From Streptomyces pristinaespiralis (lineage in GTDB: Bacteria; Actinomycetota; Actinomycetes; Streptomycetales; Streptomycetaceae), in contig NZ_CP011340.1 in assembly GCF_001278075.1 (NCBI RefSeq), positions 4,774,001 to 4,838,000 on the forward strand: a stretch of 64,000 nucleotides of DNA, read 5' to 3'. The translations under genes were made by a program, and so were the position numbers. Numbering within the stretch: position 1 is the stretch's first letter; each line of letters opens with the position of its first letter. The notes under the pieces were generated by a model. That model ran no database searches. It saw only the letters and a list, made by a program, of their open reading frames with translations, and had not been told where the DNA came from. Positions 10,459-20,217 of this stretch are shown here, piece after piece.

Positions 10459-11151
10459 ATGTACCAGCTCAGTGGCGTCACCAAGCGCTACCGGCGGGGC
10501 AAGGACAGTGTGAACGCCCTCGACGGAGTCGACCTGACCATCGAGGACGGCGGCCGGCTCGTCATCCAGGGGCCCACGGGAGGCGGCAAGTCCACGCTGC
10601 TGCAGATGCTCGGCGGCCTCGACCGGCCGAGCGAGGGCAGCGTGGTCCTCGACGGGACGGACCTGGCGGCCCTGCCGGAGGCGAGGCTGACGCGGGTGCG
10701 GGCGGAGAAGATCGGCTTCGTCTTCCAGAGCTTCAACCTGATTCCCACGCTGACCGCGCAGGAGAACGTCGAGACGGCGCTCGTACCGCTGCCGGGCCTC
10801 AAGGCACGCGAACGCAGGGAACGCGCCGGGGAGGCGCTGGCCTCCGTCGGGCTGGGCGAGCGGCTGCGGCACCTGCCCGGCGAGCTCTCCGGCGGGCAGC
10901 AGCAGCGGGTCGCGATCGCGCGGGCGCTGGTGAAACGACCGGCGGTCCTGCTCGCGGACGAGCCGACGGGCAACCTGGACGAGTCGATGCGCGACGAGAT
11001 CATGGAGGTGCTGGAGGCGCTGTGGGAGGAACACGCCTTCACGTTCGTGATGGTCACCCACGACTCGGCGCTGGCGCGCCGGACGAGACGGGTGGCGACG
11101 ATCCGCAAGGGGCGTGTGACGGTGAAGGAACGGGCGGCGGACGCGGCGTAG
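10459..11151 (+). CDS. ABC transporter ATP-binding protein, MacB/LolD type
   Basis: This is a 230-residue nucleotide-binding domain with Walker A GPTGGGKST (residues 38-46), Q-loop FVFQSFNLIPTLT, signature LSGGQ (143-147), Walker B VLLADEPTG (163-171) and a switch histidine in MVTHD. Three consecutive possible starts (TTG 10453, ATG 10456, ATG 10459) follow AGGAG at 10448-10452. The last gives the best spacing (6 nt). The QSFNLIPTLTAQENVE signature is that of the LolD/MacB/FtsE group that pairs with FtsX permeases, matching the gene just upstream. It forms a two-gene operon that runs into the repeat array after 11160. Confidence 0.92.
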   Translation: MYQLSGVTKRYRRGKDSVNALDGVDLTIEDGGRLVIQGPTGGGKSTLLQMLGGLDRPSEGSVVLDGTDLAALPEARLTRVRAEKIGFVFQSFNLIPTLTAQENVETALVPLPGLKARERRERAGEALASVGLGERLRHLPGELSGGQQQRVAIARALVKRPAVLLADEPTGNLDESMRDEIMEVLEALWEEHAFTFVMVTHDSALARRTRRVATIRKGRVTVKERAADAA

Positions 11152-11160
11152 CGCGGGGCG

Positions 11161-11755
11161 CGCGTGGGCGGTCGGGTTCGTGGCGCGGCCCGGTTGCCGG
11201 GGCTCTGCCCCGGGCCCGGCGCCTCAATCGCCGGCGGGGCTTGATCTTGCCTGGTCGGGGACTTCAGCCCCGGGTCCCGAGCTGGGCCACTTCAGCCCGT
11301 CCGGCGATCGAGGACATGCCCAGGGGCGTGCTGCGAGTGCCGGTGGGCGGTCGGGTTCGTGGCGCGGCCCGGTTGCCGGGGCTCTGCCCCGGGCCCCGCG
11401 CCTCAATCGCCGGCGGGGCTTGGGGTTGCGGGTGGGCGAGTTCAGCCCGTCCGGCGATTGAGGACACGCCCGGAGGGCGTGCTGCGAGTGCCGGCGGGTG
11501 GTCGGGTTCGTGGCGCGGCGCGGTTGCGGGGCTCCGCCCCGGGCCCCGCGCCTCAATCGCCGGCGGGGCTTGATTTCGCCGGGTCGGGGACTTCAGCCCC
11601 GGGCCCCGGGCTGGGCCACTTCAGCCCGTCCGGCGATTGAGGACACGCCCGGAGGGCGTGCTGCGAGTGCCGGCGGGTGGTCGGGCTCGTGGCGCGGCCC
11701 GGTTGCCGGGGCTCCGCCCCGGGCCCCGCGCCTCAATCGCCGGCGGGGCTTGAGG
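11161..11755. repeat. Array of intergenic direct and inverted repeats, left flank of cassette
   Basis: About 600 bp contains four copies of GCCTCAATCGCCGGCGGGGC (starting near 11221, 11400, 11550 and 11730). Three inverted counterparts of the form CCGTCCGGCGATTGAGG lie near 11297, 11446 and 11625, embedded in long units about 150-180 bp apart. Neighbouring segments such as GGTCGGGGACTTCAGCCCCG and GTGCTGCGAGTGCCGG are also repeated. Each pair can fold into GC-rich hairpins and probably ends transcription from both sides. Frames open through the array translate to repeated Gly/Pro/Arg segments and are not genes. The same units recur at 18797-19280 and, in a single form, near 39285. Confidence 0.9.
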
Positions 11756-11779
11756 ACGCGGCCGGGGTCGGGCGGGGGG

Positions 11780-12775
11780 CTACTCGTCGTCGAGTTCCCG
11801 TACGACCCTGCGTTCGATCGCCTCGACCTCGAAGCGGGCCGCAGGGTCGTTGTCCTGGGCCCGGACCGCCGCGCGGACCAGGGACAGGTAAAAGAGCGCA
11901 GGGGCGCACGGCGTCCAGTTCTCCGCCGGTTCGTCGCGGAGGAAGCGCAGAACGCTCTCCGGGTCGGCCGGGACGAACGCGTGGCGGTCGTGTTCCCACT
12001 TGTCCTCGATGCCGCGGCTCCACCTCGCCCTCAGCTCCTCCTCCGTCAGGTCGGTGAGGACCGCCCGGAAGAACGCCGCCCACTGGTTGTTGCGCACATC
12101 GAGGCCGAAGCCGAGGAGCTCGAGGTCGACCTCGTCGGACTCGTACACCGCCAGTTCCTCGCGCATCGCCCGGCGGGCGACGGCGTGCAGGCTGACTCTC
12201 CCGTCGGGGGACAGGTCGTGGTTGCGGGCCAGGCCCTCGTTCGCGGACGAGTTCCACTTCGACTTGTTGTGTCCCGCCACCCGGGAACTGCGGTGGGAGA
12301 TGACCATCTTCTTGTCCTTGCCCGTCTCCACCGCGACGTTCACGCCGAAGCTGCAGAACATGAACGGCTCCGCCTCCAGCGGGTCCTTGCCGTCGATGTA
12401 CTGCTCGCGCAGCGTCTGCCCGTCGCTCTTCATGCGGTCGAGGTTCATGGACGTGGTCATGAAGTCGTAGTAGTCCGCGTCGCGCAGGGTGAGCGTGGCG
12501 ACGGGCTCCTCCGCGGTGTGGGTGCGTGAGACGGTGAGGCGCTCCACGGCGAAGCGCGGGTTGTTCCAGCGGTGCGGTTCCCCGGCCGCCTCCTTGGCGG
12601 CCTGTTCCTCCTCGATCTCCCGCCGCCAGCGGCCGATCTCCTCCGGGAAGTGGACGCGCCCGGGGACGTACCTCACCCGCATGTTCTCCTCGGCGATCGG
12701 CCGCGTCCCGTCACCTTCGTAGACATGGCAGTCGGTCTGGCGTCCGACCACGGTGAAACGGTCCCTGGCAGTCAT
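11780..12775 (-). CDS. Degenerate Nudix-like protein divergent from the caspase-NTPase gene
   Basis: The 331-residue start MTARDRF follows GGAGAAGGTGAATTG, a clear ribosome site. The middle of the protein (residues about 138-240) has the order of elements of a Nudix fold: a strand FGVNVAVETGKDKKMVISHRSS, then KWNSSANEG. A helix RRAMREELAV (201-210) follows, and then LLGFGLDVRNNQWAAFFRAV. The helix aligns with the Nudix box REUXEEXGU. Glu206 and Glu207 are kept, the first Glu is Ala203, and the leading G-x5-E is not evident. It may therefore bind a nucleotide-type ligand rather than hydrolyse it. The N-terminal 135 residues are unrecognised. Divergence from the caspase gene by 87 bp suggests a sensor, regulator or immunity role. 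The Nudix link is an inference. Confidence 0.6.
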   Translation of the reverse strand: MTARDRFTVVGRQTDCHVYEGDGTRPIAEENMRVRYVPGRVHFPEEIGRWRREIEEEQAAKEAAGEPHRWNNPRFAVERLTVSRTHTAEEPVATLTLRDADYYDFMTTSMNLDRMKSDGQTLREQYIDGKDPLEAEPFMFCSFGVNVAVETGKDKKMVISHRSSRVAGHNKSKWNSSANEGLARNHDLSPDGRVSLHAVARRAMREELAVYESDEVDLELLGFGLDVRNNQWAAFFRAVLTDLTEEELRARWSRGIEDKWEHDRHAFVPADPESVLRFLRDEPAENWTPCAPALFYLSLVRAAVRAQDNDPAARFEVEAIERRVVRELDDE

Positions 12776-12810
12776 CAATTCACCTTCTCCGTAGAGCGGT
12801 TGACGGCTGG

Positions 12811-12826
12811 CGTGACACAGGTCACG
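12811..12826. promoter_or_regulatory. Candidate operator, GTGA-N6-TCAC palindrome
   Basis: CGTGAC-ACAG-GTCACG is a perfect inverted repeat in the middle of the 87-bp gap between the divergent Nudix-like and caspase-NTPase genes. Its GTGA-N6-TCAC form resembles sites of the CRP/FNR family. Its left arm also overlaps a GTGACA that could be a -35 element with CATGAT (12837-12842) as -10 at 19 bp spacing. This would place it to control one or both genes. Only the symmetry and position are direct evidence. Confidence 0.4.
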
Positions 12827-12862
12827 GCAGATGGACCATGATAGGGACGGGAGGGGGAGGGG

Positions 12863-15800
12863 ATGACGGTTCACCTCTTACGTGAGGAACTACGGGCGTC
12901 GGGACTGGTCGGCACCGTCGCCATGGAGGCGTACGACGATCCCGAGGGGCGGCTCGACCGCAAGCTCGTCGAGGACGCGCGCAAGCGCTTCACCAAGCTG
13001 TGCGTGCAGCGGTTCGGCTTCGGCCACGAGATGCGGCTCGACGACAGCGGGACACTGGACGACGTCAAGGCGGGGCTCAGCCGCTTCCTCGAGCACGAGG
13101 CGACCCGCAAGATCCTCTATTGGACGGGCCATGGCTACGACCTCGGGGACCACGGCTACTTCCTGGGCTGCCGGAACAGTTTCTCCACCAAGGGCATGGA
13201 TCCGAACCGGGCCATGCCCTTCACCGAGTTGCTCCAGCGGTGTGCCGCACAGCGGGACACCGAGTTCCTGATCGTCATCGATGCCTGCCAGTCGCAGAGC
13301 ACGCTGGGAGCCGCGCGTCCTCTCGTCGAGGCGTACGGACGGTTCTCCGGCGGGGCGCCGCGTGAACGCGGCCTCGTGGTCGCCGCCACCGCGGGCGCCG
13401 GCCTCAAGGTCGACGAGGGCCGCTGGGTGGACTGGCTGGAGCAGGCCGTCGCGGACGACCGGCTCGAACTCGAAGGCATGGTGCGGCCCTTCGCGTCCAC
13501 GGCGCTCTACCTCTCCTTGCCGGACCTGCTGGAGGCCGTCGACGTCAAGGCCAGGGAAACGGGACTGACCGACCCGGAGCAGCGGCCCAGGGCGGCCGTG
13601 ATCCGGCCCTTGGACACCCGCTTCCTGCACAATCCGTACTTCTCGGAGAAGAACAAGGTGTTCCGCACGGCCGCCCGGCCGCCCGAACATCTGCCGTGGC
13701 TGCGGCCGGAACACTTCGAGCAGATCTCCGACCGCACCTCCCGGCTCCGCTTCACCGGCCGGCTCCAACCGCTCAGCAGACTGGTCACCTGGCTCGAAGC
13801 GACGACGAGCGGCATGCTCGTCGTCACCGGCGCGGCCGGCACCGGCAAGTCCGCGCTGCTCGGGCGGCTGGCTCTGCTGTCCGTGCCGGAGATGCGCGAG
13901 TCGCTCAGGCCGGAACCCCCTGTCCAGACCCGGCCCCGGCCCGGCTCGATCCACGCCGCGGTGTCCTGCCGGGGCGAGTCCCTGCATTCACTGGCCAGGG
14001 CCGTGCTCGAGGTGCTGGGGCCGCTGGGCGCGGAACCGCCGCCGGAGGGCATCACCCCGGAGCAGTGCGTGGACCGGGTGGGCTCGTTGGTGGAGCGGAC
14101 GGGCGCGCTGAATCTGCTGGTCGACAGCCTCGACGAGGCCATGCCCGGCCAGGCCCACGAGATCGCGCGCCGGCTGCTCAACCCCCTGTCGCACCGCCCC
14201 GGCGTGAAGGTCGTGGTGGCCACCCGCGCCCATCCCCGGCAGATCACCGACGGAGTGGGCCGGGAATCGCTGCTGGACGCTCTGGACCGGACGGCGCCCG
14301 ACCTGCGGATCGACCAGGACGCCGACACCGAGCGGGACATCGCCGCCCTCGTCGCGGCCGACCTCGCCGCGTACGAGGGCTCTCCTTATGCGGGCCGGGA
14401 GAACGACGGCGTGCGACTGGAGACCGCTCGACGCGTGGCGGAACAGTGCCGGCGGCGATTCCTCGTGGCCAAGCTGGTCGCCCGGGCCCTCGCGCGGGAG
14501 CCGGAATGCCTGTCGGGCGGCCGGTTGGAGGAGTTCGTCCGCGACGGAGGCACCGACCTGCGGGCACGGATGGAGGACGAGCTCGAGGCCCTCGATCCGT
14601 CCGGCCGGTTCGGCGCCGCTGAGCTGCTGCTGCCGCTCGCCCTGGCGCAGGGCAGCGGGCTGTCCGACCGGGACCTGTGGTTCCGCATGGCGCGGGCGCT
14701 GCTGCGCCGTGGCTCGCCGAAGGTGTCGCGTCGGTCCCTCGACACGGTGCTGAGCAGCGTCACGGACGCCCTCCTGACCGTGGAGCACCGGCCGGGGAGT
14801 CCTCCGATCCACCGCCTCGGGCACGCCAGTTACGGAACGGCGCTGCTGGCTCGCGCCAAGCTCGACCCTGCTGCCGCTCACCGCCGCGTCTACGACGAAC
14901 TGGTGGGCGACTGGGACACGGCGGACGAGTACACCCTGGCCCACCTCGGAGCGCACGCCGCGCAGGCCCGGAGCGCGACGGTGGTGCTCGACGACGAGCC
15001 CGATCCGTTGGAGGAGCTCTTCGACGACCCGCGCTTCCTGGTGCGGACACGACCGGACGTGATGCTGCCGCTCGCCGCCTCGTTGGCCGCCACCTGCGAG
15101 GGCGCGGCGCTGTACCGGCGGGTGGGCGGCGAATTCAGGCGGCACACCGATCGCCGGGAGCGCAGGGCGATCCTCCGCGCGGTGGCCCACGCCGGCCACC
15201 CGGAGTACCTGCGCCGGCTCCAAAGCTTTCAGGAGTTCAAGGATCTGTGCTGGGACGAGGTGTGGACCGACACGCCGCCGGACCCGCTGGAGCTGTGCCT
15301 GCCCGCGCCCCTCGGCGGGGCCCGCGCGGTGAGCTGGACGGCCGCCGAGGGAGGCACGATCGCCGTCGCGGGGCGGGGAGAGATCTCCGTCCGCGACGCG
15401 CACACTGGGGACCACGTACTGACACGCCGTACCACCGGGTCCGAGCACGGCAGCCGGGCCGTGCTGACCGAGGTGTGCGAGGCGGGTACCCGGACCCGGC
15501 GGGTGACGGTCGCCCACGACGGCTCGTCCGTGCACCTGTGGTCGGGGCGCGAACGCCTGCCGCGCACGACGTTCCACTGGGGAGGCACGCCGGGCAGCGT
15601 CGCCGCCGCCCGGCTCGGCGACGACCTGCTGGTCGCCGCGGCCGACGGCCGCCGTGTCTGGGCGTGGCGCTGGCCGGTCGTCGAAGGACCGGCGGCCGGG
15701 GTCCGCAGCACCGTTCTGCCCGTGGAAGCGGGGCGCGTCGCGCTGCTCGGACTGCGTGACCGTGGCTTCCTGCTCACCGCGGGCCGCACGGCGACCGTGC

Positions 15801-17275
15801 ATGAACTGCACGGCAAGCTCTCCGGGGACGAGCACTGGGTGCGGCGGGAGTGGGAACTGGACACGCTCCACGGGACCGCGTTCGCCGCAGCGGCGCTGGC
15901 GGAGGGGGACGACAGCGGCCTGCTCGCGGTGGTCGACGGCGAACACGTCCGCGTGTGGCGGCTGTTCGCCGAGGGGTACACCGCGACCCCGCGGTTCACG
16001 CGGGAACTCGTCGCCGAGTCGGCCTCCCGGGACGTGGCACTCGGGCTGTGCGGTGAGCTGCCGCTCGTCGCGCTGTACGAGGACCACGGCAGCACCGTGC
16101 GGGTGACGGGCATCACCGACAGCACCTTCCGGTGCTCCTTCGGCCTGGGCAGCAGGCGCAACGGCCTGGCCTTCGACCCCTCTGGCTCGGGCCGGCTGGC
16201 CGTCGGTGACGGTGCGGAGGTGCGGCTGCTCGATGTGCCCGCCGCGGTGCGCGCGGGCCGCGAGGTCCGGCGGCGTGATCACGACGAGCACCCGGTCGTG
16301 CGGCTGGCGGCGGCGGAGGCAGGGGCTCCCGCCCTGCTGACCAGGGTCTGGGGCCGCGATGTGCTCGTCACGCGGCAGGACGCCCGTCAAGGACAGGTCG
16401 GCACCGAGGCCGTGTTGTCGCACGAAGCGCGGGTCACCGCCGTGTCCTCGGTCCGGCACGGCGGACAGTGGGCGGTCGCGGCCGCCATCGGGCGGCGCGT
16501 CCGGATGTGGCGGCTCTTCGACGATCCGGACGACCGGCGGCAGGACGGACACGTCGACCTCGGCGGCGATGCCGGCGACCACGCCGAGGGCCTGGGACTG
16601 GTGTCCACGGCCGGCGGCCTGCACCTGTTCGTCCCCGACGGACGCAGGGTCCTGCGCTTCACACGCCCGGACGGGACGGGTCGGTGGCACAGCTCCGGCG
16701 AGGCGGTCGTCCCGGAGGTGAGGATCCGGGCCGTGCACGCCCACTCGGCGGGCGGACGCACCTGGGTACTGGCGGACTGCGTGGACGCGCTGCGGCTGTG
16801 GGAGAGCACCGAAGAGGGCCTCGTCGCCGCCGGCGGCCGGCGGGCGGCACCGGACCGTCCCGCCGGTGCCGCGCTCGGCGCGGGACTCGTCGATGGCGAA
16901 CTCCTGCCGCTGATCGCCTGGACCCGCGCGGGCACGGTGCATCTGGCGGAGTGCGAGGAGGGCGACTGGACGACGACCAGCTTCGCGCACACGCACGGAA
17001 CCCCCGCCGCCCTCGCCTTCTCCGGGCGCGCCCGCAATCCGCTGCTGCTGGTCCTCGGTGGCGCGCGGACCGCGTCGGTGCGGGACGTCGGGCGGGGGGT
17101 GTGGCTCGACCAACTCACCGCGCCGCACCGGGGCCTGGACATCGAGGCGGCCGACGCCGCGTTCGACCCCGGTCACGGCATCACGCTCGCGTTGCAGGGA
17201 CGCGTCCGCTGCGACCAGATCACACTGCCCGAGCCGCTGATCAGGAGTGCCGTGCAGGCCGCCCGGGCCGTGTAG
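12863..17275 (+). CDS. Caspase-like protease - STAND/AAA NTPase - beta-propeller protein
   Basis: The 1470-residue protein starts at ATG 12863 behind a very strong GGAGGGGGAGG site. Residues 1-245 are a caspase-like (peptidase C14) domain: a strand KILYWTGHG with catalytic His90, and EFLIVIDACQSQS with catalytic Cys142. Residues about 295-640 are a P-loop NTPase of STAND/NACHT-like type, with Walker A GAAGTGKS (323-330), Walker B LNLLVDSLDEA (416-426) and a following helical region. From about residue 810 to the end there are degenerate WD40-like blades, marked by repeated pairs such as VHLWSG, RVWAWRW, HVRVWRL, RVRMWRL and ALRLWES. The layout (effector, NTPase switch, propeller sensor) matches NLR-like conflict proteins of multicellular bacteria. 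A likely model is that ligand binding by the propeller frees the protease. It is probably co-transcribed with the hydrolase 55 bp downstream. Confidence 0.9.
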   Translation: MTVHLLREELRASGLVGTVAMEAYDDPEGRLDRKLVEDARKRFTKLCVQRFGFGHEMRLDDSGTLDDVKAGLSRFLEHEATRKILYWTGHGYDLGDHGYFLGCRNSFSTKGMDPNRAMPFTELLQRCAAQRDTEFLIVIDACQSQSTLGAARPLVEAYGRFSGGAPRERGLVVAATAGAGLKVDEGRWVDWLEQAVADDRLELEGMVRPFASTALYLSLPDLLEAVDVKARETGLTDPEQRPRAAVIRPLDTRFLHNPYFSEKNKVFRTAARPPEHLPWLRPEHFEQISDRTSRLRFTGRLQPLSRLVTWLEATTSGMLVVTGAAGTGKSALLGRLALLSVPEMRESLRPEPPVQTRPRPGSIHAAVSCRGESLHSLARAVLEVLGPLGAEPPPEGITPEQCVDRVGSLVERTGALNLLVDSLDEAMPGQAHEIARRLLNPLSHRPGVKVVVATRAHPRQITDGVGRESLLDALDRTAPDLRIDQDADTERDIAALVAADLAAYEGSPYAGRENDGVRLETARRVAEQCRRRFLVAKLVARALAREPECLSGGRLEEFVRDGGTDLRARMEDELEALDPSGRFGAAELLLPLALAQGSGLSDRDLWFRMARALLRRGSPKVSRRSLDTVLSSVTDALLTVEHRPGSPPIHRLGHASYGTALLARAKLDPAAAHRRVYDELVGDWDTADEYTLAHLGAHAAQARSATVVLDDEPDPLEELFDDPRFLVRTRPDVMLPLAASLAATCEGAALYRRVGGEFRRHTDRRERRAILRAVAHAGHPEYLRRLQSFQEFKDLCWDEVWTDTPPDPLELCLPAPLGGARAVSWTAAEGGTIAVAGRGEISVRDAHTGDHVLTRRTTGSEHGSRAVLTEVCEAGTRTRRVTVAHDGSSVHLWSGRERLPRTTFHWGGTPGSVAAARLGDDLLVAAADGRRVWAWRWPVVEGPAAGVRSTVLPVEAGRVALLGLRDRGFLLTAGRTATVHELHGKLSGDEHWVRREWELDTLHGTAFAAAALAEGDDSGLLAVVDGEHVRVWRLFAEGYTATPRFTRELVAESASRDVALGLCGELPLVALYEDHGSTVRVTGITDSTFRCSFGLGSRRNGLAFDPSGSGRLAVGDGAEVRLLDVPAAVRAGREVRRRDHDEHPVVRLAAAEAGAPALLTRVWGRDVLVTRQDARQGQVGTEAVLSHEARVTAVSSVRHGGQWAVAAAIGRRVRMWRLFDDPDDRRQDGHVDLGGDAGDHAEGLGLVSTAGGLHLFVPDGRRVLRFTRPDGTGRWHSSGEAVVPEVRIRAVHAHSAGGRTWVLADCVDALRLWESTEEGLVAAGGRRAAPDRPAGAALGAGLVDGELLPLIAWTRAGTVHLAECEEGDWTTTSFAHTHGTPAALAFSGRARNPLLLVLGGARTASVRDVGRGVWLDQLTAPHRGLDIEAADAAFDPGHGITLALQGRVRCDQITLPEPLIRSAVQAARAV

Positions 17276-17330
17276 AGCGGCGACGGCGGCCTCAGCAGCC
17301 CCAAGGGACAAGGAAAGGGAGACATCCGCG

Positions 17331-18776
17331 ATGGAGCACGACCTGGTGGTCTTCGTACCGGGCATTCTCGGGAGCCGGCTGACCCGGGACGGACGGGACC
17401 TGTGGCACCAGTCGAAACAGGCCGCGCTGCAGATGCTGCGCCCCTCCAAGGCCGCGGAACGCCTCGCGCTGCCGCCCGGTATCGGGGACAACGAGCCGGA
17501 GGAGCCTTGGGCGGTGGACGCCGACGAGCTGCTCAAGGGACCCGACGCCCTGCCCGGTCTGATCTCCTTCCTCGGCTACCCGGACGTCAGAGCCATGCTC
17601 GACCGCAGCCCCGACCACCATCCGCAGGGCGGGCTGCGCCCCGGGCAGTACGTCCCCTTCGCCTACGACTGGCGTCTGTCCAACCGGCTCAACGCGCGCC
17701 GTCTGCGGGTGCGGGTCGAATCGGCGCTCGAGCAATGGCGGGAGCGGGCCGCGGGCTTCTACCCCCAGGCACACGACGACGTGCCGAAGGTCGTCTTCAT
17801 GTGCCACTCCATGGGCGGCCTGATCGCCCGTTACTACCTGGAGTGCCTGGGCGGCCGGGACATCGCCCGTTCCCTGGTCACCATCGGCACGCCGCACCGC
17901 GGCGCGGCCAAGGCGGTCCGCTTCCTCACGAAGAACGGCGTGGGGCCCGGTGCGGACCAGGGCAGGCTGCGCCGGAAGGCCATGCGGAAGGCGGCGCGGG
18001 TCAACTCCGCGCTGGTGGACCTGGCCCGCACGTTTCCGTCCGTGGCGCAGCTGCTGCCGGTGTACAAGGCGGCCATGGCCGACGGAGGAAACCGGTGGCG
18101 CCCGCTGACCGACGGGTTCGTGCCCGATCTGCCCTCGGAGCTGGTGGACGACGCCTTCGCCTTCCACCGTGAGTTCACCGATGCCTGGGAGGCGAGCCGG
18201 TCCGCCCTGCCCGTGGCTCCGTACCGGGTGCACTGCCTCGGCGGCAGGGCGCATCCGACCGTGCACGGGGTGGTGGTCGGCGTGGACGGGACGCTCGAGT
18301 TCCCCACGTGGCTCGACAACTCCCAGGAGTGGACCGGGGACGGCACCGTCCCGGAGGAGTCGGCCTTCGCGAAGTGGGCCCTGGACGACATGTCCCAGGC
18401 GGTCTGGGGCGGTGAGCGTCACGCCACGATGGCGGGGGCGGAGTCGGTGGGCCACCAACTCGCCGCCATCCGCCACGGCAAGCCGGCCAGGGAAACGCTG
18501 GCGGGGGAGGACTTCGGGCTGGCGGCCCCGGACTTCGCCGTGGCGGGCGAGCCGTTCGAGGTCGCCGTCACGGGGATGGCCGACCCGGGCCGGACGGTAC
18601 GGGCACGCCTGGTCCGGGACGGGGTGCCGGCCGCGGACCCGGTCGGTCTGGTACCGGACGGTACGGGCAGCCTGGTCGCGGACCTCACGGCGCCTTCCGG
18701 CACGTGGGTGCTGGAGGTCGAGGCGGACCGGCCGAGGGTGGTGTGCCGTGACGTCGTGACGGTCGTCGAGGACTGA
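17331..18776 (+). CDS. LCAT/PGAP1-like alpha/beta hydrolase (putative lipase/acyltransferase)
   Basis: This is a 481-residue protein whose ATG follows AAAGGGAGA. The opening VVFVPGILGSRLTRDGRDLW is the glycine-rich first strand and oxyanion region of lecithin:cholesterol acyltransferase-like enzymes. YDWRLS (112-117) is also typical of that group. The nucleophile elbow is CHSMGG, with Ser160. The later WTGDGTVPEESA carries the probable catalytic Asp, and a His-containing stretch (GGERHATMAG or SVGHQLAAI) probably completes the triad. No signal peptide is present, so the protein should act in the cytoplasm, possibly on membrane lipids. A C-terminal beta-rich domain of about 90 residues follows. 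Lying 55 bp behind the caspase-NTPase gene, it is a plausible second effector or a protease substrate; that role is inference. Confidence 0.85.
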   Translation: MEHDLVVFVPGILGSRLTRDGRDLWHQSKQAALQMLRPSKAAERLALPPGIGDNEPEEPWAVDADELLKGPDALPGLISFLGYPDVRAMLDRSPDHHPQGGLRPGQYVPFAYDWRLSNRLNARRLRVRVESALEQWRERAAGFYPQAHDDVPKVVFMCHSMGGLIARYYLECLGGRDIARSLVTIGTPHRGAAKAVRFLTKNGVGPGADQGRLRRKAMRKAARVNSALVDLARTFPSVAQLLPVYKAAMADGGNRWRPLTDGFVPDLPSELVDDAFAFHREFTDAWEASRSALPVAPYRVHCLGGRAHPTVHGVVVGVDGTLEFPTWLDNSQEWTGDGTVPEESAFAKWALDDMSQAVWGGERHATMAGAESVGHQLAAIRHGKPARETLAGEDFGLAAPDFAVAGEPFEVAVTGMADPGRTVRARLVRDGVPAADPVGLVPDGTGSLVADLTAPSGTWVLEVEADRPRVVCRDVVTVVED

Positions 18777-18796
18777 CGTGACGTCGTCACGGCTGC

Positions 18797-19280
18797 CCAG
18801 TCGGCCGGCGGGGCTTGGGTTTGCCGGGTCGGGGACTTCGGCCCCAGGCCCCGGGCTGGGCCACTTCAGCCCGTCCGGCGATTGAGGTCATGCCCGGAGG
18901 GCGTGCTGCGAGTACCGGCGGGCGGTCGGGCTCGTGGCGCGGCGCGGTTGCGGGGCTCCGCCCCGGGCCCCGCGCCTCAATCGCCGGCGGGGCTTGGTTT
19001 CGCCGGGTCGGGGACTTCAGCCCCGGGCCCCGAGCTGGGCCACTTCAGCCCGTCCGGCGGTTGAGGTCATGCTCGGAGGGTGTGCTGCGTGTGCCGGTGG
19101 GTGGTCGGGCTCGTGGCGCGGCCCGGTTGCCGGGGCTCCGCCCCGGGCCCCGCGCCTCAATCGCCGGCGGGGCTTGATCTTGCCTGGTCGGGGACTTCAG
19201 CCCCGGGCTCCGCGCCTCAATCGCCGGCGGGGCTTGGGTTTGTCGGGTCGGGGACTTCGGCCCCGGGCCGGGCCTGCGGG
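18797..19280. repeat. Array of intergenic direct and inverted repeats, right flank of cassette
   Basis: These are the same units as at 11161-11755 and in the same orientation. Full GCCTCAATCGCCGGCGGGGC motifs start near 18974, 19154 and 19214, with a truncated copy near 18803. Inverted CCGTCCGGCGATTGAGG forms occur near 18871 and 19051. Spacings of 180 and 60 bp show unit-length variation. The array separates the LCAT-like gene from murQ, which ends at 19285, and should contain terminator hairpins for both. Together with the left array it brackets the three-gene cassette with long direct repeats. Confidence 0.9.
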
Positions 19281-19284
19281 CCGG

Positions 19285-20217
19285 TCAGGGCTTCCGCGGG
19301 GTCGTGAGGGCCGCGCGGAGGTGGCCCGAGGTGCGGGACAGGAGCGTGGCCGCCGTCGCGGCGTCCACGTCGCCCAGGATCACCAGGATCGCGTTCTTCA
19401 CCTCGCCGTCCGTCGCCTCGAGCGCCGACTCGATCTCCTCGTCGGACGCTCCCGTCGCCAGCGCCACGATGCGGCGGGAGCGGGCGCGGAGTTTGTCGTT
19501 GGACGCGCGGACGTCGACCATCAGGTTCCCGTAGGTCTTGCCGAGGCGGATCATCGTGATCGTCGAGATCATGTTGAGCACCAGCTTCTGCGCCGTTCCC
19601 GCCTTCAACCGGGTGGACCCGGTGAGGAGTTCGGGCCCGGTGACGACCTCGATGCCGTGTTCCGCGGCCGCGGCAAGCGCGCTGTCCGCGTTGCAGGAGA
19701 GCCCGATCGTGAGCGCGCCCAGCGCGCGGGCGTGTTCCACCGCGCCGATGGCGTACGGGGTGCGGCCGGACGCCGAGATGCCGACCACCGTGTCGTCGGC
19801 CGTGAGCTGCAGGCCGTCCAGGTCCGCCGCGGCCAGTTCCTTGCTGTCCTCCGCGCCTTCGACGGCCTTGACCATCGCGGTCGGTCCTCCCGCGATCAGG
19901 CCGAGGACCTCCGACGGGTCGGTGTTGAAGGTGGGCGGGCACTCGCTGGCGTCGAGCACGCCCAGCCGGCCCGCCGTGCCGGCGCCCGCGTAGATCAGCC
20001 GGCCGCCGCGGGACATCCGCTCGGCCGTGCCGTCGATCGCGGCGGCGATGGCGGGCAGTTGCGCGGCGACGGCGGCGGGGACGGTCTCGTCCTCGGCGTT
20101 CATGGTCCGGGCGATCTCGAGCGTCGGCAGCCGGTCGATGTCGGCGAGCTCGGGTCGGAACGCCTCGGTGGTGAGAGTGGCCAGCTGGGCGCGGAGTTCA
20201 CCGTAGGTGGAGGTCAT
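19285..20217 (-). CDS. murQ: N-acetylmuramic acid 6-phosphate etherase
   Basis: The 310-residue protein matches MurQ along its length. It opens with LPTLEIARTMNAEDETVPAAV. The SIS-domain core GGRLIYAGAGTAGRLGVLDASECPPTFNT contains the GckR/MurQ signature, and later there are AAADLDGLQLTADDTVVGISASGRTPY and NMISTITMIRLGKTYGNLMVDV. MurQ cleaves the lactyl ether of MurNAc-6-phosphate to give GlcNAc-6-phosphate and D-lactate in cell-wall recycling, in the cytoplasm. The ATG at 20217 is the natural start. The gene is followed by the repeat array and preceded, 53 bp away, by an RpiR/MurR-type regulator on the same strand, so the two probably form an operon. Confidence 0.96.
   Translation of the reverse strand: MTSTYGELRAQLATLTTEAFRPELADIDRLPTLEIARTMNAEDETVPAAVAAQLPAIAAAIDGTAERMSRGGRLIYAGAGTAGRLGVLDASECPPTFNTDPSEVLGLIAGGPTAMVKAVEGAEDSKELAAADLDGLQLTADDTVVGISASGRTPYAIGAVEHARALGALTIGLSCNADSALAAAAEHGIEVVTGPELLTGSTRLKAGTAQKLVLNMISTITMIRLGKTYGNLMVDVRASNDKLRARSRRIVALATGASDEEIESALEATDGEVKNAILVILGDVDAATAATLLSRTSGHLRAALTTPRKP

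Follow-up and report, generated by a model that had tools for sequence, protein, structure and literature searches.

How would a bacterium use a caspase-like protease that is fused in one chain to a nucleotide-binding switch and a propeller-type sensor, and whose gene lies between those of a lipase-like and a Nudix-like protein? The question is raised by a locus of Streptomyces pristinaespiralis within the window, by which we mean the whole 64,000-nucleotide stretch analyzed here (4.774–4.838 Mb in a single-contig genome of 8.53 Mb). A preliminary description of this DNA had pointed out three genes: one for a 1470-residue caspase-STAND protein, one for a hydrolase beginning 55 bp further on, and a divergent one for a Nudix-like protein. 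All three open reading frames (ORFs) were confirmed at the locus, with gene starts placed by homologues, and the nearest named relatives of their products come from Streptomyces and its kin. We lean slightly towards the view that the genes form a horizontally mobile NLR/apoptosome-like conflict cassette, which would cause cell death or growth arrest. In window coordinates, its parts are:

11780–12775, minus strand: probable NUDT22-like Nudix protein, 331 aa (homologue starts, structure model)
12863–17275, plus strand: caspase-STAND-double WD propeller protein, 1470 aa (ORF, family and homologue searches)
12863–13648, plus strand: putative metacaspase-like domain, residues 1–262, with the His90 codon at 13130–13132 and the Cys142 codon at 13286–13288
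13718–15232, plus strand: STAND NTPase and helical region, residues 286–790 (Pfam, structure model)
15278–16252, plus strand: predicted first WD-type propeller, residues 806–1130 (structure model)
16265–17242, plus strand: predicted second propeller, residues 1135–1460 (structure model; Apaf-1 alignment, model residues 1–1177)
17331–18776, plus strand: LCAT-like alpha/beta hydrolase with a C-terminal extension, 481 aa, with Ser160, Asp337 and His364 present

The three genes stay together in other genomes. When genome contigs were scanned with just the Nudix profile, 111 relatives came up, of which 80 were kept, all from Streptomyces and related actinomycetes by record title; 54 of these loci are of the cassette type (L107–L159 and the truncated L179) and 26 of a solo type (L160–L178 and L180–L186). 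According to a hidden Markov model scan, a caspase-STAND gene lies divergently beside the Nudix gene in 49 of the 54 cassette-type loci, and the hydrolase gene comes next in 45 of the 45 whose contig reaches that far, those of L113, L131, L147 and L149 ending earlier. This is the co-occurrence by which the preliminary description had proposed to check its grouping. The five loci without a divergent caspase-STAND gene are L122, L141 and L144, which are fusions, together with L145 and L179. Neither the caspase-STAND gene nor the hydrolase gene was found in any of the 26 solo loci within the examined stretch, which in five of them spans less than 6 kb on one side. A cassette-type Nudix gene is present in 8 of 150 genomes of the genus, and in 6 of these the three genes are arranged in the same way; in G028 and G033, the hydrolase gene is on a different contig.

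The large protein had been described as an effector, a switch and a sensor in the order seen in inflammasome/NLR-like conflict proteins, a reading that domain searches and a structure model bear out. The caspase signal of the single sequence is weak, consisting of NCBIfam NF047832 (E = 2.8e-5, under the cut-off) and a PADLOC caspase match (E = 0.0029), with no match to Pfam C14 and with unrelated chains only in a PDB search. A 25-sequence caspase profile matches metacaspase-4 (6w8s, E = 3.6e-5) and GSU0716 (3bij, E = 7.5e-4) in the PDB, and the GHG and DxC motifs of these matches line up with the previously suggested His90/Cys142 dyad, of which His90 is kept in 49 of 49 readable loci and Cys142 in 50 of 50 loci. 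This profile suggests that residues 1–262 are a metacaspase-like domain with a His-Cys dyad. The P-loop STAND NTPase is recognized by Pfam AAA_22 over the cut-off (AAA_16, nSTAND1 and NACHT being under it), and its Walker residues are conserved, K329 in 49 of 50 rows, the exception being the frame-broken L151, and D424/E425 in 49 of 49 readable. Further along the chain, where a single degenerate beta-propeller had been proposed, there is no Pfam match, and the model of the NTPase-propeller part (predicted local distance difference test, pLDDT, 88.2; predicted template modeling score, pTM, 0.86) places about 55 strands in two propellers with about 14 WD-type blades; its best structural match is full-length Apaf-1. 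The protein would then comprise an N-terminal effector, as judged from sequence, a STAND switch, and a C-terminal repeat sensor, whose propellers come from the model.

The downstream protein, already noted as lipase-like, matches LCAT over the Pfam cut-off. Its active site is not intact everywhere: Ser160 is present in 33 of 46 hydrolases (Ala in 10, Gly in 3) and His364 in 32 of the 45 readable (Asn in 13), and the catalytic Ser and/or His is lost in 15 of the 46. These 15 loci and three with an intact triad (L115, L117 and L159) make up the 18 that carry a fourth gene about 100–200 bp downstream, whose product has pentapeptide repeats and a hydrophobic segment that probably spans the membrane. 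The fourth gene is absent from 27 loci, two of which (L107 and L150) end too near to judge, and the other 25 and the window have intact triads (26/26). In a quick LG+G4 tree of the caspase protein, built without bootstrap (49 rows, without L151), the fourth gene has a single origin, and degradation of the triad occurs at least twice, solely within that clade. Among the best 120 of 1192 hydrolase homologues, 25 are degraded, with none among the 31 most distant of those listed. Of 21 further hydrolases, including L040 from a cassette genome, 20 have an intact triad. The cassette of Streptomyces clavuligerus fits the pattern, with a fourth gene and an Ala/Asn triad. The catalytically dead hydrolases remain under purifying selection: their median ratio of nonsynonymous to synonymous substitution (dN/dS, a simple Nei-Gojobori count) is 0.30 over 28 pairs and equals that of their caspase, so the hydrolase fold appears to be needed even where its chemistry is gone.

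The preliminary description had the caspase perhaps cleaving the lipase. Because caspase and hydrolase stay together even where the hydrolase is dead (15/46), a functional partnership between them is likely; for the same reason, lipase activity is not a universal killing step. One could go further and assign the hydrolase a mainly structural or inhibitory role towards the caspase, with incidental lipase activity and with killing by broad proteolysis. The degraded triads at loci that all keep Cys142 (50/50) agree with this, as does the purifying selection on the dead copies, but every degraded triad among the 46 falls within the clade with the extra membrane gene, and the intact triads elsewhere (the 26 judged and 20 of the 21 further hydrolases) point to a catalytic role there, which makes this explanation unlikely in our view. 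A housekeeping lipase was considered and rejected: matches occur in 134 of 150 genomes, but those listed are mostly short nucleophile-elbow matches to other hydrolases, and the long ones largely adjoin caspase, STAND or CHAT proteins. In 15 of 18 distant loci that were fetched, a relative of the hydrolase adjoins a caspase-STAND protein whose sensor is of the WD40 or TPR type; this is not an unbiased rate because several of these loci were fetched after the hydrolase search had flagged them. CHAT-domain proteins at L065:10008–12167 and L066:6830–8137 adjoin an LCAT-like hydrolase of the same family.

The divergent protein has no significant match in Pfam, NCBIfam or PADLOC. Its Nudix-like nature, suspected earlier, is supported by a model (pLDDT 93.3) with a Nudix fold nearest NUDT22, including the N-terminal part of NUDT22, and we describe it as NUDT22-like on the basis of this model. 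Many of its relatives bear the public name "translation initiation factor 2", which we rejected because the fold is NUDT22-like. The canonical Nudix box is REUxEE; here, the Arg and the two later Glu are invariant, and the first Glu is replaced by Ala in 50 of 50 rows. E180, R202, E206 and E207 are kept in all 50. Most of the solo relatives (42–46% identity) occupy the same conserved position on the chromosome, near thiC.

Several loci show the NUDT22-like domain in other company. At L122:7166–11026, a single chain comprises a SAV_2336 N-terminal domain, a caspase, a TIR domain and a NUDT22-like C-terminal domain, and its neighbors are Trypco1, a trypsin-VMAP-C protein and an AAA+ protein. We read the SAV_2336 domain as a vWA component and the AAA+ protein as MoxR, the latter from its position and a PPPWRDF motif compared with the one in PMC7159879. 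The L122 chain also puts a TIR and a nucleotide-hydrolase-like domain next to each other. At L144, the NUDT22-like domain follows a weak kinase match and adjoins VMAP-M2, and L141 is likewise a kinase-like fusion. A SLATT-like gene adjoins the Nudix gene in 9 loci of one clade (at L132, SLATT_1 with E = 4.6e-7, under the cut-off, and DUF4231 just over it; at L136, DUF4231 under it). At L042:5213–5641, a SLATT-like gene directly follows a caspase-STAND-WD40 gene in a stretch that has the hydrolase and no Nudix gene; the SLATT-like gene thus goes with the caspase and not with the Nudix gene alone.

These arrangements bear on whether the NUDT22-like protein is an effector at all. It could instead be a housekeeping or antidote enzyme for self-protection or signal clearance, and we rate this just short of an even prospect. 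Such a role would suit the divergent orientation of the gene, its median dN/dS, which is the lowest of the three genes in each of five compared groups (0.15–0.23), the single chromosomal locus of most solo relatives, and a Nudix gene of the cassette type that persists as an orphan on a Streptomyces plasmid (L187:12001–13032), beside an IS5 transposase in the place of the caspase gene. However, the NUDT22-like C-terminal domain stands behind caspase-TIR at L122 and behind a kinase-like region at L141 and L144, which is the effector position of conflict proteins.

If the three genes do form a conflict cassette, the following scheme suggests itself, in which fold, partners and residues are taken from sequence and model and we infer ligand, oligomer, cleavage and death. 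The WD propellers would keep the STAND NTPase off, as in Apaf-1, until a stress or invasion ligand frees it to oligomerize with ATP. This would bring the fused caspase domains together and activate them; as the caspase is fused to the NTPase, no CARD adaptor would be needed. The caspase would then cleave or dock the neighboring hydrolase, which in the three-gene form found in the window might attack membrane lipid, so that the cell is stopped or killed. The divergently expressed NUDT22-like enzyme may hydrolyze a nucleotide-sugar or an ADP-ribose-type nucleotide; it would then either deplete a pool, acting as a second effector, or remove the trigger, acting as a brake. One clade gained the pentapeptide-repeat membrane protein, after which most of its hydrolases lost catalysis yet stayed conserved, as if the new membrane protein took over execution and the hydrolase fold were retained as a caspase substrate or scaffold. 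We tentatively propose, as something possible rather than probable, that an executioner swap has occurred: an Apaf-1-like caspase-NTPase activates a lipase-fold partner, which became a conserved pseudoenzyme linking caspase to executor once the membrane executor was gained, with the NUDT22-like enzyme and, in another clade, the SLATT-like protein as a nucleotide-signal arm.

The cassette appears to move as a unit, because the 41 of its loci at which four or more flanking genes were called represent 36 contexts, where a shared context means two or more gene families in common and flanking genes were called by a custom heuristic based on third-position G+C (GC3). Among the solo loci, 19 of 26 share one context, near thiC. 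An apparent empty site is found at L097, where an FtsX/ABC pair and murQ have a murP-like phosphotransferase system (PTS) EIIBC gene (L097:9645–11750) between them and the window has the cassette (11151–19285); this comparison is with one genome, L097 alone of ten relatives around murQ having the same ABC pair, and three more PTS EIIC matches lie elsewhere in the source genome. The Nudix gene occurs in five plasmid records, of which three were opened; S. clavuligerus pCLA1 has a complete cassette, and in the other two the Nudix gene is an orphan or of the solo type. A Nudix search of phage records gave no match.

Several observations weigh against the conflict reading or its details. In the protein alignment, His90 is kept in 26 of 26 rows and Cys142 in 25 of 26, P0150 carrying Arg instead. 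Three of the 18 distant caspase/NTPase loci (L044, L050 and L071) have no hydrolase in the stretch, and Rhizobium and a cyanobacterium have a STAND protein beside a hydrolase without a detectable caspase. Inspection of the hydrolase alignment by eye revealed no obvious conserved cleavage site. Since the fourth gene was gained once, its link to hydrolase decay rests on one clade, and a test of the pairing has one independent pair and no power. Finally, PADLOC matches to member families among neighbors (E 1e-8) number 23 in 148 proteins for the cassette and 9 in 148 for the solo control, mostly under generic names; the samples are 148 of 318 and 148 of 366 called neighbors, respectively, and one protein may count twice. 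Enrichment in defense islands is therefore not clear, which also suits the idea that the cassette has its role in Streptomyces development (mycelium, sporulation), through programmed death or lysis, and not in defense. Streptomyces and related actinomycetes have a mycelial habit, and all 80 kept loci are assigned to them by title. Yet the sporadic occurrence (8/150 genomes), the many contexts (36 among 41 loci) and the megaplasmid copy are unlike a core developmental gene, and we consider a developmental role quite improbable.

The remaining features of the locus are putative regulatory elements and repeats:

12776–12862: divergent intergenic region, 87 bp, putative shared promoter (homologue-conserved starts of both genes)
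12812–12825: GTGACACAGGTCAC, inverted repeat, putative operator (pattern match in the divergent gap)
11145–11766, no strand: left direct-repeat array, 179-nt spacing (repeat comparison)
18777–19319, no strand: right direct-repeat array, 94% identical to the left array over 300 nt

On the minus strand, the Nudix ORF reaches 12874; since its homologues begin at about MTARDRF, the gene most likely spans 11780–12775, leaving a gap of 87 bp. The start Met of the caspase-STAND protein is aligned in 26 of 26 rows of the protein alignment. For the hydrolase, the listed ORF begins at 17247 and homologues begin at the Met of MEHDL/MQHDL, which gives the start at 17331. G+C content is slightly low in the Nudix gene (0.675) and ordinary in the caspase-STAND (0.734) and hydrolase (0.724) genes, compared to 0.733 for the window. 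No other perfect GTGAC-N4-GTCAC occurs in the window, where chance would give 0.11; the inverted repeat is identical in L107 and imperfect in 4 more close homologues. Scans for sigma-70-type promoters and terminators gave nothing above chance, with no sigma-70-type match in the 87-bp gap. The long GC-rich direct repeats bracket the cassette on both sides; when the 300-nt unit was searched against its own genome, matches of 234–300 nt lay beside the cassette only, with shorter cores scattered. Such repeats could favor gain or loss of the cassette through recombination.

With a single chain that unites caspase, switch and double propeller, the cassette would offer a bacterial equivalent of the apoptosome in compact form. 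The likely downstream partner is encoded in the adjacent gene, which allows a direct test of what bacterial caspases cut, and the loss of active-site residues from the hydrolase following the gain of a membrane protein amounts to an experiment, run by nature, on which part is the executioner. The system is accessible in Streptomyces clavuligerus ATCC 27064, which has a complete copy with all four genes, and a NUDT22-like nucleotide enzyme is tied to bacterial conflict systems. In the literature searched, with most subscription journals outside it, we found no report of the three-gene caspase-STAND/LCAT/Nudix cassette, of the assignment to NUDT22 or of decay in the hydrolase; among the NUDT22 matches listed, by titles and abstract starts, none dealt with bacterial conflict systems.

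Two elements of the cassette are already in print, as judged from the accessible parts of the papers. Metacaspase-NACHT-WD40 proteins of bacteria, reported in 2012 as widely distributed (PMC3501461), share the three-part architecture; the accessible text makes no mention of a linked LCAT-like hydrolase or NUDT22-like gene, and the WD repeats of the cassette, unlike theirs, are too diverged for Pfam. The MoxR-vWA-VMAP ternary systems described in 2020 share, by description only, the pairing of caspase and hydrolase, the caspase always being accompanied by an alpha/beta-hydrolase gene, and Nudix, TIR, pentapeptide and SLATT domains are reported for these systems or their sisters; the part available says nothing of hydrolase decay (PMC7159879). 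The cassette differs in that a STAND-propeller protein replaces MoxR, vWA and VMAP, families to which the three proteins gave no match in Pfam or NCBIfam, and in that Nudix is a separate, near-constant divergent gene. Human NUDT22, a UDP-glucose hydrolase according to the accessible part of PMC10101856, shares the modeled fold (5lor and 5lf9, 18–20% identity), whereas the cassette protein is bacterial and linked to conflict genes. The anti-phage Avs/bNACHT STAND proteins, as summarized in PMC10907252, have the same order of N-terminal effector, STAND switch and C-terminal sensor; the cassette differs in its caspase effector and accessory genes, and a PADLOC scan of its proteins gave weak matches only (caspase, Avs2 with E = 0.034, and PDC-M16A). 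Closest in the model is Apaf-1 of the animal apoptosome (3sfz, 3shf and 5juy), in which an NTPase, a helical region and two WD propellers follow one another and are arranged overall as in the cassette protein. At about 12% identity, and with hydrolase and Nudix companions, the likeness is one of architecture and does not imply common descent; in the position of a CARD that recruits a separate caspase, residues 1–262 themselves match caspases.

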